Assembly (NCBI GenBank): GCA_903945195.1
Contig: CAJAUT010000011.1
Span: forward strand, 1 to 55,056
Length of the DNA stretch: 55,056 bases
Source: an uncultured bacterium
GTDB lineage: Bacteria; Patescibacteriota; Microgenomatia; UBA1400; UBA12108
Direction: 5' to 3'
A program made the translations under genes and the position numbers. The notes beneath the pieces are model-generated. The model had not been told where the DNA came from, made no database searches, and saw only the letters and a program-made list of their open reading frames with translations. Positions 8,810-17,516 of the stretch are shown here, piece by piece (the stretch's first letter is position 1; each line of letters starts with the position of its first letter).

Positions 8810-9799
8810 ATGATCTTAGTCACAGGTGGGTGTGGATATATAGGTAGTCATGTAGTAAAAGCTTTGACAGAAGCAGGAGAAAAAGTACTGGTTTACGACA
8901 ATCTCTCTCAAGGGACTAAGGCAGCGCTAATACATGGTGAAGAGCTCGTGGTGGGAGATATTTGCGATCAAGGATCTCTAAAACAAGTTTTTGAAACTCA
9001 CGATATAGAGGCTGTGATCCACCTGGCAGCCCTAGTAAACGCAGCCGAAAGCAACGATAAAGTAGATCTATATAGATCGGTAAATGAGATAGGCTCCCAA
9101 AATGTCTACCAAGCAGCAGTGGCAGCTGGCGTCAAAATGATCATGTACTCTAGCTCTGCGGCAGTCTATGGCACTCCTGTCGGATTAGAGCCTATACAGG
9201 AATCAGCGCCTCTACTACCAACAAATGTATATGGTGAGACCAAACTAGCAGGAGAAAAGTTGCTCCTAGATATCGCTGGTCATGAGGTAAAGTATGGGAT
9301 TTTTCGCTTCTTCAATGTGGGTGGTGCCGAAGAAGGTGGTAGGCTAGGCCAAAGCCGTGAGAGTCGCGCCATCATGCAGAGATTGTTTGCTGTAGCTGCG
9401 GGAGATGATGATCATATCGTAATCAGTGGCCATGACTACGACACCTCTGACGGGACTGTAGTGCGAGACTTTATCCACGTGGAAGATATTGCACTAGCCT
9501 TTGTCCTGGGTCTCAACAATCTACGTAAAGGGAGTAAGTCATTTACCCTCAATCTAGGGTCAGGAGAGTCACATACCATAGGGGAAGTAATAAAAGAAGT
9601 AGGTATTGTGACAGGTAAAAATATACCTCTTATCTACGGACCTAGAATCAAAGGAGATATCAGCTACTCTCTCTCAGATATCTCGCTAGTTCAAAAAGTG
9701 CTAGGCTGGGAACCTGTACATACCCTCAGATTAATCGTAAGAGATGGGTGGAATGCGTACAAAAAACTCTCCTTAAAAGAAGGAAAACATGTCTTATAA
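8810..9799 (+). CDS. galE: UDP-glucose 4-epimerase
   Basis: TGGCGYIGSHVVKALTEAG; YSSSAAVYG; YGETKLAGEKLL. Confidence 0.9.
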   Translation: MILVTGGCGYIGSHVVKALTEAGEKVLVYDNLSQGTKAALIHGEELVVGDICDQGSLKQVFETHDIEAVIHLAALVNAAESNDKVDLYRSVNEIGSQNVYQAAVAAGVKMIMYSSSAAVYGTPVGLEPIQESAPLLPTNVYGETKLAGEKLLLDIAGHEVKYGIFRFFNVGGAEEGGRLGQSRESRAIMQRLFAVAAGDDDHIVISGHDYDTSDGTVVRDFIHVEDIALAFVLGLNNLRKGSKSFTLNLGSGESHTIGEVIKEVGIVTGKNIPLIYGPRIKGDISYSLSDISLVQKVLGWEPVHTLRLIVRDGWNAYKKLSLKEGKHVL

Positions 9800-10400
9800 G
9801 GCCATTATCATCTCATCAGACGACTTAAAGAAAACAATCCCAGACTATTTACCATCCAAAGCATCAGAATTTCACGAGTTATCTGCTCGAATGGCGGATA
9901 AGCAGTTCAAAAATATGCTAGTAGAGACATCGCGTCCCAAGGTGATATTAATGAATGGTGGTTCTGCCTCTGGTAAGACAGAGTTCATGGTCTCACATTT
10001 ATCAAACAAAAACGCGATTATTGTGGATACTACACTACCTTCGATTGAAGGTGCGAGGATAAAGATCGAAAAATCTATGAAATATAATAAAATAGTCGAA
10101 CTTTATTCTGTAATGCCAGATAATCTGGCACGAGCTTTTACTGTATTTCTACACAGAGATAGAATATTTCCTGCCACTCACTTCTATCGCACTCACAGCA
10201 ACTCAAGAATGACATTATTGTGGATAGCTCGAAATTATCCACATATAAAAATAAACATTATTGAAAGTCAATTTTCTGAAGGTATGGATATGATATTTTC
10301 TGTAATTAAATTCAAAAATAGAAATGGGTTAATCAAATATCTCGAAGACATTCAGTTAAGTGAAGATGCTATAATCAAAGCAACTATATCTGAAGGTTAA
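9789..10400 (+). CDS. Zeta-toxin-like P-loop kinase
   Basis: Walker A in VILMNGGSASGKTEFMV; later HFYRTHSNSRMTLLWIARNYP; overlaps galE 3' end by 11 nt. Confidence 0.6.
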   Translation: MSYKAIIISSDDLKKTIPDYLPSKASEFHELSARMADKQFKNMLVETSRPKVILMNGGSASGKTEFMVSHLSNKNAIIVDTTLPSIEGARIKIEKSMKYNKIVELYSVMPDNLARAFTVFLHRDRIFPATHFYRTHSNSRMTLLWIARNYPHIKINIIESQFSEGMDMIFSVIKFKNRNGLIKYLEDIQLSEDAIIKATISEG

Positions 10401-10407
10401 ATATAAT

Positions 10408-10662
10408 ATGAACAAAATAATACTTAAAACCGATCAGAAACATCCACAAATAGTAGCGTACAAGCAGGCTCTAGAGAAAGGGTTAAAAAGTCATCACGTC
10501 CTTCCTCGTGGGAATGAGTGGATAGTAAAAAAAGCAAATACACAGAAAGCATCTGGTGTTTATAGTACGCAATCTGAGGCGATCCAGAATGGTAAGATAT
10601 TTGCCAAAAATAGCGGCTCAGAATTGTTTATCCATGGACAAGACGGTCGAATTCGCGAATGA
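10408..10662 (+). CDS. DUF2188-like small protein
   Basis: HHVLPRGNEWIVKKANTQKASGVYSTQSEAIQNGKIFAKNSGSELFIHGQDGRIRE matches the DUF2188 style. Confidence 0.8.
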   Translation: MNKIILKTDQKHPQIVAYKQALEKGLKSHHVLPRGNEWIVKKANTQKASGVYSTQSEAIQNGKIFAKNSGSELFIHGQDGRIRE

Positions 10663-12220: not shown

Positions 12221-12250
12221 TTGTAAACAATTTATATTAAGTAGTATAAT
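12221..12250 (+). promoter_or_regulatory. Putative promoter TTGTAA-N18-TATAAT for the 12257-13303 cassette
   Basis: TATAAT at 12245-12250, exactly 6 nt before ATG 12257. Confidence 0.6.
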
Positions 12251-12256
12251 TTAGTT

Positions 12257-12445
12257 ATGTCCAGTGATCTCAAAGTTAAATTCCTCAAAATTTACGCAAA
12301 TCTTCCCCTTGCAGCCAGAGAAGAAGTAATCGTCGTTGTAGACAATGAACCAATGAGCTGGAACGTCCTACGTATAGAAGTAGAGAATGATACACCAAAA
12401 GGATCAAAAGGTTTGACCATATTATGGCAACTGAAAATTTTATGA
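12257..12445 (+). CDS. Small unknown protein, cassette member 1
   Basis: 62 aa; leaderless-type promoter; 3' end overlaps next CDS. Confidence 0.65.
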   Translation: MSSDLKVKFLKIYANLPLAAREEVIVVVDNEPMSWNVLRIEVENDTPKGSKGLTILWQLKIL

Positions 12446-12654
12446 CTATAAACACAGATCTACAAAAAATTGTTGTAGAAAGACTTAGAAGATTGCCTAG
12501 TCATCTACAGATTTCAATTGGAAATACTAGCTATTCAAACGAAGAATTATTATCAAGTGTCAAAGATGGTACTAAACTAGGACAACAAATAATGGGTATA
12601 CAGCTAGATTACCTGCAAGATTTAGCTAGTGGAAAGATATATCTAGATGAGTAA
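12424..12654 (+). CDS. Small unknown protein, cassette member 2
   Basis: 76 aa; overlaps both neighbours. Confidence 0.65.
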   Translation: MATENFMTINTDLQKIVVERLRRLPSHLQISIGNTSYSNEELLSSVKDGTKLGQQIMGIQLDYLQDLASGKIYLDE

Positions 12655-13303
12655 TTCAATCCTTATTACTCGGCCGAATTACGACATAACAACTAACTAT
12701 TTATTTTACTGGACCGAGCTAGTTATTTCATTTTCTACTAGACATAATGCCGCAATTTATGATCTATCTGGCTCAAAAGCAAATCGTACAAACTTGGAAA
12801 GCTACAATGCCAAGCGTCGTCCAAAAATTATTTTCTTAAATGGACATGGATCATCGGATGTCATAACCGGTCAAGATGACGAAGAAATAATTACGAGTGC
12901 TGATAAAGATTTATCAAGATATCAAAATTGTATTTTCTACGCTAGGAGCTGCCAAAGTGCAAATAATTTGGGAGTTTCCCTAGTAGACAAAGGTGTGAGT
13001 GCGTTTATCGGGTACAAGGAAGATTTTATTTTCTTTCGGAATGAAAATTATTCTACTAAACCGCTCAAAGATCCTATTGCCAGATATTTCTTGGATCCTT
13101 CCAATCTAGTCATGACCACACTAATAAAAGGTAATAGTGTGAAAGAGGCAGATAAAAGATCAAAAAGATCAATGACGAAAAATTTTCTTAAATTACTTAC
13201 AAGTACCTCAAGTACTGATGATCGAGATACGGCTCCATACTTGTGGTCAAATATTAGGGCGCAAGTTGTGTTGGGTGATGAATCAGATAAAATATTAGTT
13301 TAA
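12647..13303 (+). CDS. Clan CD-like (caspase/CHAT/gingipain-like) peptidase candidate, cassette member 3
   Basis: IIFLNGHGSSDVITG (His motif) followed by NCIFYARSCQSANNLG (Cys motif). Confidence 0.55.
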   Translation: MSNSILITRPNYDITTNYLFYWTELVISFSTRHNAAIYDLSGSKANRTNLESYNAKRRPKIIFLNGHGSSDVITGQDDEEIITSADKDLSRYQNCIFYARSCQSANNLGVSLVDKGVSAFIGYKEDFIFFRNENYSTKPLKDPIARYFLDPSNLVMTTLIKGNSVKEADKRSKRSMTKNFLKLLTSTSSTDDRDTAPYLWSNIRAQVVLGDESDKILV

Positions 13304-14580
13304 TTTTTACCCCATATCATCATCAAGGCATTACCTACTTGCTTAGTCCACAATACTTTCTTTTTTCCAAACTGCTCGGTCTCCCAGGTAGACCAGTGTT
13401 CGTAGTCAAATCCAGGTTGCTCTACTATATAAATCAAGAGATCTGCCTGGCTATGTTCACTTAGCTCTACTACATTTAACCCCTTCATCCTCAGTAGACC
13501 TCTGTAGTCATCAGCTTGTGGGACCGATGTACCGGTGGGAAGTACTGCCACTACCGCCACCTTTTTCCCTTTAAGTTCTTCTATACTGGCGATCTCTGAT
13601 ACATTATTTTCTATCTCATAAAGTGGACGCTTAGTGTTTACAGGCATAGATGGGACAGATCCATTTAAAAGTATCCAGATTGTCATGACTAGTAGGGCTA
13701 CTTTTTTATGCTGCAGGACCCACTTGATCATCACATAAAGATAAGTCATAGCTACTCCAAATAGATAGTGCTCAGGTACAGTACCAACCATCATAAAAAA
13801 TAAAAGTCCAAAAATTAGTGTAAGTTTTTCCCATGCTTTACTTTTTTTATCAAAAATAAATAGCAGGGGTAGCGCAAGCGTGAGGTATAGTGATCGCAGA
13901 CCTAGCTGGCTGGTGAGTATCGTCAGATTGCCTAAATGTAGCTGTGAGCCAACAAGCCCAGATCCAGGGTTTGCCATAAATTGGCGCACCAAAAATCCCT
14001 TGGTAATAAACTCAAATAATATTATGGGAGTCCATGGGGATATGTAGGCTGCTAGGCCTAATAGTATTTGTTTCCAGCTAGCTCTATTTGAGATATACAC
14101 TCCGATGAGTATAGGTAGTGCCAAAATACTAGCTGGGTGCATAGCAGTAGCTACGCCAAATAGCAGTGCTGATATCCACAAATTCTTCGTGAAGTAAGTG
14201 GTTGCAAGTCCAGCAAATAAAAATAAAGCGTAAGAAAATCCGTTACCTGGGTGAGTAGCTAGTCTGCTCCATAGTGGTGTGGTCATCACAGCCAAAGCAG
14301 TCAGGATAGTCAAAATATAGTACTTTGAATTTTTAAACATTACATATAAAAATATTAATAGACAAAGAGCTGTAACAAGCATATTAAAATAAATAGGACC
14401 TCGTATATCTCCTCCACTTAGCCACAGTGATGGGTAGTAGAGATAGTAGTAGATAGGACTAGCAGAAAGGCCAGGACTTAATCGTGGACCTAGCCACACC
14501 ACTTTGTGTAAAAAAATATTGGACATCTCATAGAGGTCGCGGCCATAGTCTGTATCTATAGGTAGCATGTTTATATTCAT
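13300..14580 (-). CDS. GT39-like membrane glycosyltransferase
   Basis: Multipass; WLGPRLSPGLSASPIYYYLYYPSLWLSGG. Confidence 0.6.
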   Translation of the reverse strand: MNINMLPIDTDYGRDLYEMSNIFLHKVVWLGPRLSPGLSASPIYYYLYYPSLWLSGGDIRGPIYFNMLVTALCLLIFLYVMFKNSKYYILTILTALAVMTTPLWSRLATHPGNGFSYALFLFAGLATTYFTKNLWISALLFGVATAMHPASILALPILIGVYISNRASWKQILLGLAAYISPWTPIILFEFITKGFLVRQFMANPGSGLVGSQLHLGNLTILTSQLGLRSLYLTLALPLLFIFDKKSKAWEKLTLIFGLLFFMMVGTVPEHYLFGVAMTYLYVMIKWVLQHKKVALLVMTIWILLNGSVPSMPVNTKRPLYEIENNVSEIASIEELKGKKVAVVAVLPTGTSVPQADDYRGLLRMKGLNVVELSEHSQADLLIYIVEQPGFDYEHWSTWETEQFGKKKVLWTKQVGNALMMIWGKN

Positions 14581-16489: not shown

Positions 16490-16523
16490 TGAATTATATT
16501 AGGGTTTTATGCGGGAGGTGTAT

Positions 16524-17516
16524 ATGACTGCCCAGTCTAAGTCACTTGTTATTTACGAGATCGCTAAAGGCAAGAAGATTTCAATTCCAATTATTAAGGA
16601 TAGTGTCTGGTTAACCCAACCACAAATGTGTGAATTGTTTAGCAAAGATCCAAGAACTATCGGTGAGCATATCATTAATCTTTACAAAGAAAAGGAGTTA
16701 TTAGCTAGACCAACCATCCGGAAATTCCGGATAGTTCAACTTGAGGGAAAAAGACGAATAGTGCGTACTTTGGATCACTATAATTTAGACGTCATAATAT
16801 CCGTTGGTTATAGAGTTAAGTCACTTAGAGGCACACAATTCCGTATTTGGGCTACCAAAGTACTCCGTGACTATATTCTCAAAGGTTACGCAGTAAACAA
16901 ACATCGTCTAATAGATACTGGTATAGATGAGCTAGAGCGTGCGGTCAATTTAATTAGGCAAACTCTAGATTCTAAAGTACTCACTGGTAGTGAGGCCAAA
17001 GGGATCCTCAAAGTCATTACAGATTACGCGCACTCATGGATCTTGTTTCACAAATATGATGAAGGGCACATTGATCTCAGGTCAATTACTAAACCTAGTT
17101 ACATACTGACATACGAGTCAGCTCTCGGACTCATAACACAACTTGCAGACAACCTTCATAGTAATAAAGTTGCCACTAAATTTGTGGGTATGGAGCGTGA
17201 TGATCATGGTCTCGAGCGAATAATCGGTAGCATCAACCAGACATATAGCGGAGTAGATCTCTACACTTCAGTCGAAGAAAAGGCTGCCCACATGCTCTAC
17301 TTTGTGATCAAAGACCATCCATTGATCGATGGAAATAAACGTAGTGGATCTCTCTTGTTTATTCATTACCTCGCACAGAATGGATTGCTCTTTAGAGATA
17401 GTGGCGAGCGCACGATAAATGACAATACTATCGTCGCTCTTGCTCTGCTAATCTCACAAAGTCATCCAAATGATAAAGAGATCATGATTAGGCTCATTAC
17501 AAATCTGTTAACCTGA
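16524..17516 (+). CDS. RhuM-like N-terminus fused to Fic/Doc domain
   Basis: SD gggaggtg before ATG 16524; WLTQPQMCELFSKDPRTIGEHI...IRKFRIVQLEGKRRIVRTLDHYNLDVIISVGYRVKSLRGTQFRIWATKVLRDYILKGYAVN; HPLIDGNKRSG Fic/Doc motif. Confidence 0.85.
   Translation: MTAQSKSLVIYEIAKGKKISIPIIKDSVWLTQPQMCELFSKDPRTIGEHIINLYKEKELLARPTIRKFRIVQLEGKRRIVRTLDHYNLDVIISVGYRVKSLRGTQFRIWATKVLRDYILKGYAVNKHRLIDTGIDELERAVNLIRQTLDSKVLTGSEAKGILKVITDYAHSWILFHKYDEGHIDLRSITKPSYILTYESALGLITQLADNLHSNKVATKFVGMERDDHGLERIIGSINQTYSGVDLYTSVEEKAAHMLYFVIKDHPLIDGNKRSGSLLFIHYLAQNGLLFRDSGERTINDNTIVALALLISQSHPNDKEIMIRLITNLLT

Follow-up and report, generated by a model that had tools for sequence, protein, structure and literature searches.

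Three overlapping genes on one strand of an ultra-small bacterial genome encode a predicted one-domain CHAT-type cysteine peptidase (P3) preceded by two mini-proteins (P1 and P2). The genes form an operon and are co-inherited, the predicted protease fold of P3 carries a conserved His/Cys pair, and decay within the trio is one-sided, affecting P3. We see an even chance that the trio constitutes a compact, autonomous, and horizontally transferred module of the toxin–antitoxin or abortive-infection type, in which a protease effector is controlled by two small partners. The source genome comprises 1.05 Mb, is 97.6% complete, and lacks ribosomal protein uL30, which is present in 13 of 14 control genomes; loss of uL30 is typical of CPR bacteria, and together with the genome sizes of about 1 Mb among its relatives this points to a member of the CPR (Patescibacteria). 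Positions refer to the window, that is, the whole stretch of 55,056 nt that was analyzed. The cassette spans about 1 kb and encodes a single catalytic domain plus two mini-proteins. Its features are as follows:

12221 to 12250, plus strand: predicted promoter of the trio, TTGTAA-18-TATAAT, its end lying 6 nt ahead of P1 (single-site match with comparative support)
12257 to 12445, plus strand: P1, small partner protein of 62 aa (open reading frame and conservation in relatives)
12442 to 12654, plus strand: P2, 70 aa from the ATGA overlap, or 76 aa if read from 12424
12647 to 13303, plus strand: P3, 218 aa, CHAT-type clan CD cysteine peptidase by predicted fold
12839 to 12850, plus strand: catalytic His motif NGHG, P3 residues 65–68, with His67
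12938 to 12961, plus strand: catalytic Cys motif YARSCQSA, P3 residues 98–105, with Cys102

The three overlapping ORFs of 62, 76, and 218 aa described in an earlier sequence-only reading of this DNA are present on the plus strand. P1 and P2 overlap by 22 nt if P2 is read from 12424, and an 8-nt overlap joins P2 to P3 (ATGAGTAA, found likewise in 18 of 72 loci). P2, however, probably starts later, at the in-frame ATG at 12442, and then comprises 70 aa, because the resulting −4 overlap of the P1 stop with the P2 start (ATGA) recurs in 36 of 69 relatives. Across the 72 distinct P3 loci, both junctions mostly overlap or are a few nucleotides apart. Moreover, dN/dS values of about 0.02–0.16 for P1, P2, and P3, obtained from close pairs (unsaturated ones only), indicate purifying selection, and thus each of the three ORFs has the character of a genuine gene.

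One promoter common to the trio, as had also been proposed, is backed by comparison between loci, while the site in the window taken alone is not significant (14 such sites in the stretch versus 15.3 expected). In 23 of the 38 bacterial loci, a TATAAT-like box matching in five of six positions starts 10–19 nt before the P1 start (7.3 in shuffles, maximum 14), most commonly 13–15 nt ahead of the P1 ATG, and a Shine–Dalgarno-like motif precedes P1 in none of the 38. Archaeal loci carry a TATA-like box at −34 to −25 from P1 in 20 of 30 cases, compared with 2.5 in shuffles. The P1 mRNA is probably leaderless in bacteria and archaea, with the transcript starting at P1 itself. With promoter boxes spaced for leaderless transcripts in bacteria and archaea alike, the cassette seems to be transcribed as a unit of its own, and the gene overlaps together with the promoter suggest that the small upstream genes are co-transcribed with P3.

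Structure prediction, which the sequence-only reading had named as the check on its assignment of the third ORF to the clan CD peptidases, yielded a well-supported CHAT/clan CD cysteine-peptidase fold. The AlphaFold2 model of P3, based on 33 sequences, reaches a pLDDT of 97.2 and a pTM of 0.93, and its top PDB matches in Foldseek are almost exclusively clan CD peptidases (E 9e-7 to 7e-4), led by SAVED-CHAT (8tl0, E 9e-7) and followed by gingipain RgpB (4ief, E 2e-5) and by GPI8, separase, and caspase (E 2e-4). The layout of P3 fits clan CD, with the His in an HG motif and the Cys ending the next core strand. All 72 relatives compared have Cys102 and 69 of 70 have His67; the nine added loci keep both residues without exception. 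Both motifs named in that reading are found in P3, but His67 and Cys102 are 35 residues apart and not “about 50”. The predicted fold and the His/Cys residues argue for proteolytic activity of P3. At the level of family profiles, Pfam returned weak Peptidase_C25 matches in 3 of 33 members (best E 0.0029, below the curated cut-off) and no CHAT family match, and the sole PADLOC-DB 2.0.0 hit, to E1-E2 at E 0.016, does not amount to a match with a known defence model. An aminotransferase match in the PDB sequence search was taken as chance. P3 is basic (median pI 8.8), whereas P1 and P2 are neutral to acidic. Because no signal peptide or extra domain is visible on reading the sequences, P3 is expected to reside in the cytosol as a CHAT-type peptidase of one domain.

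Among characterized proteins, SAVED-CHAT of type III CRISPR shares with P3 the best fold match, the CHAT His/Cys pair, and the organization as a several-gene module. In contrast to SAVED-CHAT, P3 lacks a SAVED or other sensor domain, its partners are unrelated in sequence, and no Cas genes were noticed in the stretches inspected. Pfam detected no Cas gene among ten window flanks, and among the best 25 of 186 families in the flanks of 41 loci, the only Cas-related matches were of Cas4 and PrimPol type, with two proteins each. The TPR-CHAT protease of Craspase (Csx29, with Csx30/Csx31) is a CHAT protease controlled by partners, as proposed for P3, and matches P3 weakly in Foldseek (7xss, E 0.03), but the trio has neither TPR repeats nor gRAMP/Cas7-11, and P1 and P2 have no detectable relation to solved chains. 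Peptidase family C25 resembles P3 by the gingipain match and the weak Pfam matches mentioned above, yet P3 has no evident secretion signal, pro-domain, or Ig domain.

The two small proteins are probably paralogues. Aligned by hhalign, P1 and P2 match at E 4e-4 over 31 columns with a probability of only 37%, and the P2 profile scores above 5 bits on 26 of 69 P1 proteins versus 0.8% of shuffled ones. Conserved P1 residues are F9, P17, R21, W35, E41, L53, and L56. Conservation is concentrated on NLP..R.E, W35, and E41 in P1 and on R20, G33, and G53 in P2 (numbered from 12424). The P2 model, folded from an alignment that left out the viral row, consists of a helix, a β-hairpin, and two helices (pLDDT 86.4), and has no fold relative in the PDB (best E 0.35). 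No real match to either family was found in Pfam, PADLOC, PHROGs, or NCBIfam, nor any detectable relation to a solved chain in the PDB sequence search, and neither Pfam on the members nor the P2 fold search revealed a recognized fold of antitoxin, sensor, or DNA-binding type. Over the 33–34 members of each protein, Pfam gave no consistent family, and weak matches with HTH-type names or to DUF7713 were not accepted; sigma and response-regulator matches to P2 in the PDB sequence search were taken as chance; and Pox_VP8, Bdr, and acylphosphatase matches of the window proteins were sub-threshold and not common to relatives.

The strict linkage of the three genes is evident from their co-occurrence. 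P2 accompanies P3 in 72 of 72 distinct loci and P1 in 69 of 72, which bears out the expectation that the small ORFs are conserved with the protease. Two of the three loci without P1 are contig ends and the third belongs to an archaeal virus; in G154, where the P3 locus lies at a contig edge, P1 was found at the end of another contig. Each cellular locus with a full-length P3 that is not interrupted by a contig end (about 80, from CPR-like bacteria and DPANN archaea) has P1 and P2 immediately ahead of P3, and nine further loci outside profile building contain all three genes each. The P1 and P2 profiles were built from the first 35 loci, and the archaeal matches, mostly at E 1e-15 to 1e-32, are thus independent of them. 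A separate P1 search of 374 genomes of the class found 35 carriers, 34 of them in common with the 37 P3 carriers, and the sole P1 carrier without a P3 match (G302) retains P1, P2, and the first 21 codons of P3.

The known occurrence of the trio in the sampled sets is limited to small-genome bacteria and archaea. P3 relatives, about 32–49% identical to P3 of the window, occur in 8 of 89 close genomes, 37 of 374 genomes of the class, and 12 of 380 of the phylum, as well as in about 32 of 279 genomes, remnants included, in the phylum of the Woesearchaeota locus L001. The counts for the close and the archaeal genomes result from removal of false positives, weak P3 matches (G056, G048:C94, and G807; 5e-4 to 5e-5) lying within glycosyltransferase or hydrolase genes. 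Overall, the trio is present in about 3–10% of the sampled ultra-small bacteria and 12% of the sampled ultra-small archaea. Such sparse carriage argues against a housekeeping or lifestyle protease of episymbionts that, aided by two accessory subunits, would serve cell division, symbiosis, or control of the surface and have no role in conflict. The strong purifying selection on the trio, its restriction to small-genome bacteria and archaea, and the position of some copies next to ftsZ/ftsA or, like that of the window, in surface-polysaccharide regions are in line with this explanation, while the repeated inactivation of P3, the absence of an evident signal peptide, and the carriage of a distant two-gene version by a virus are at odds with it, and we regard it as rather improbable.

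The trio is inherited as a unit. Distances of P1, P2, and P3 correlate with Mantel r of 0.56–0.66, compared with a permutation maximum of 0.20. In the P3 tree, the archaeal/bacterial grouping involves at least two changes and bacterial families are interleaved, indicating that the unit moves between lineages. Signs of transfer, namely the patchy occurrence, the interleaved families, the two to three trio copies in some genomes, and the absence of a constant neighbour, suggest a spread of mobile type. A two-gene version is carried by the Methanofastidiosa virus vir519 (BK063666.1, L047:4687-5630), in which a P2-like protein of 66 aa overlaps a 248-aa P3 relative of 26% identity that keeps the His and the Cys and has an added C-terminal transmembrane helix. 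This distant viral pair, along with the patchy spread and the decay of the trio, would fit a selfish or viral cargo module used by viruses or elements against rivals or for control of the host, the cellular copies being remnants. We consider this origin very improbable: BK063666 is the only P3 carrier among 50,697 phage records, none was found in 72,556 plasmids or in a scan of viral contigs of limited sensitivity, and the cellular copies are under purifying selection.

A marked asymmetry is seen in the decay of the cassette. P3 is disabled with P1 and P2 intact in 12 loci, whereas no locus combines an intact P3 with a damaged P1 or P2. The lesions comprise nonsense codons (L020, L032, L039, L070, and L075), truncations or deletions (L046, L068, L078, L085, L152, and L162), and an H67Y exchange (L044). 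By gene length, the chance that all twelve would fall in P3 is about 0.61^12 = 0.003, a value that is only rough, given that the loci share ancestry, that the length-based null takes in neither selection nor tree relatedness, and that some of the P3 stops could be assembly errors. Further, degenerate P3 remnants without P1 and P2 occur at L169 (near a contig end), L170, and L172, and L171 keeps P2 only; none of these remnants has an intact P3. A P3 that is costly or toxic and held in check by P1 and P2 would be expected to decay in just this way, and the one-sidedness is the single new clue to function beyond the earlier reading.

The same pattern bears on the possibility that P1 and/or P2 are substrates of P3. 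A signal would then cause P3 to cut its partners, e.g., close to the invariant Arg21 in P1 or to Arg20 in P2, thereby releasing an active fragment or ending inhibition, as Craspase acts on Csx30. Clan CD enzymes often cut after Arg or Lys, known CHAT systems have dedicated small substrates, and both the strict three-gene linkage and the conserved basic residues within the otherwise variable P1 and P2 would be explained. However, none of the twelve loci with a broken P3 shows damage to P1 or P2, which is odd for pure substrates and argues against their being only that, and the two proteins display no sign of a processed peptide, a signal, or a variable core. We judge a substrate role unlikely, though worth serious consideration.

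Control of a toxic protease by P1 and P2 has its closest organizational parallel in type II toxin–antitoxin systems. As in these, small genes, inferred to be co-transcribed, lie upstream of and overlap a larger, often inactivated gene, the partners outlast the putative toxin gene (12 versus 0), and the loci are patchy, transferred, and found among toxin–antitoxin-like genes. The trio differs in having two paralogous partners instead of one antitoxin and a protease of putative toxicity instead of an RNase, kinase, or AMPylase. EACC1 and ternary conflict systems likewise combine a caspase-like peptidase with small non-catalytic partner domains, but they are described as occurring mostly in multicellular bacteria, with NTPase or vWA cores, none of which is present in the trio (PMC7159879, PMC8195603); a keyword search of PMC7159879 gave no mention of Patescibacteria or Woesearchaeota. 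Searches of Pfam, NCBIfam, PHROGs, PADLOC, and PDB sequences gave no convincing match for the trio, and no description of it was found in the open-access literature on CHAT and caspase-like proteases (CPR, DPANN, toxin–antitoxin, and conflict systems), which covers Craspase, CalpL, SAVED-CHAT, and ternary conflict systems. The earlier statement that no described system has this exact trio is upheld in all libraries and open-access literature examined.

No neighbour gene is constant across trio loci. Some neighbours are Fic, HEPN/MNT (nucleotidyltransferase) pairs, type IV restriction, or TOTE genes, and most are ordinary genes, including FtsZ/FtsA and glycosyltransferases; the trio of the window sits in a surface-polysaccharide region. 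At 9789–10662 of the window, 1.6 kb upstream of the trio, lies what may be another pair of toxin type: a Zeta-toxin-like P-loop protein (PF06414, E 1.7e-7) followed by an 84-aa DUF2188 protein with a match to PDC-S16, a PADLOC candidate family (E 1e-20). A RhuM–Fic fusion protein (PF13310, E 3e-26; PF02661, E 2e-9) is encoded at 16509–17516, and two further genomes have relatives of RhuM/Fic genes in the vicinity of their trio. The convergent gene at 13300–14580 encodes a predicted membrane protein without a Pfam match, its stop overlaps the P3 stop by 4 nt, and nearby genomes hold distant relatives only. In L085 (G302 contig 3), P1–P2 adjoin a C5 DNA methyltransferase and a Vsr-like endonuclease, as read from the sequence.

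For a toxin–antitoxin or abortive-infection-type module, we infer that P1/P2 bind P3 and act as inhibitors or sensors, that P3 is toxic, and that a trigger and a target exist; these elements could be linked in the following way. P1 and P2, the small α/β paralogues, would be made first from overlapping genes on one, probably leaderless, mRNA and would bind P3, keeping it inactive or tuned. A trigger, probably infection or stress, or else damage or loss of P1/P2, would free P3, and the released CHAT-fold cysteine endopeptidase would act as effector by cleaving host or viral proteins, whereupon growth would stop.

The defence repertoires of CPR bacteria and DPANN archaea are poorly understood, and the CHAT-protease immune systems known to us are large and CRISPR- or NTPase-linked. 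Tentatively, and with somewhat less than even confidence, we propose that the trio represents a previously undescribed three-component protease toxin/immunity system characteristic of ultra-small episymbionts, both bacterial and archaeal. Its one-domain CHAT protease would be restrained by a paralogous mini-protein pair of a new fold family, and the system would cross the domains of life. If P3 is toxic, the trio would be simpler than any other CHAT effector system known to us and would offer a tractable model for the control of caspase-like proteases.
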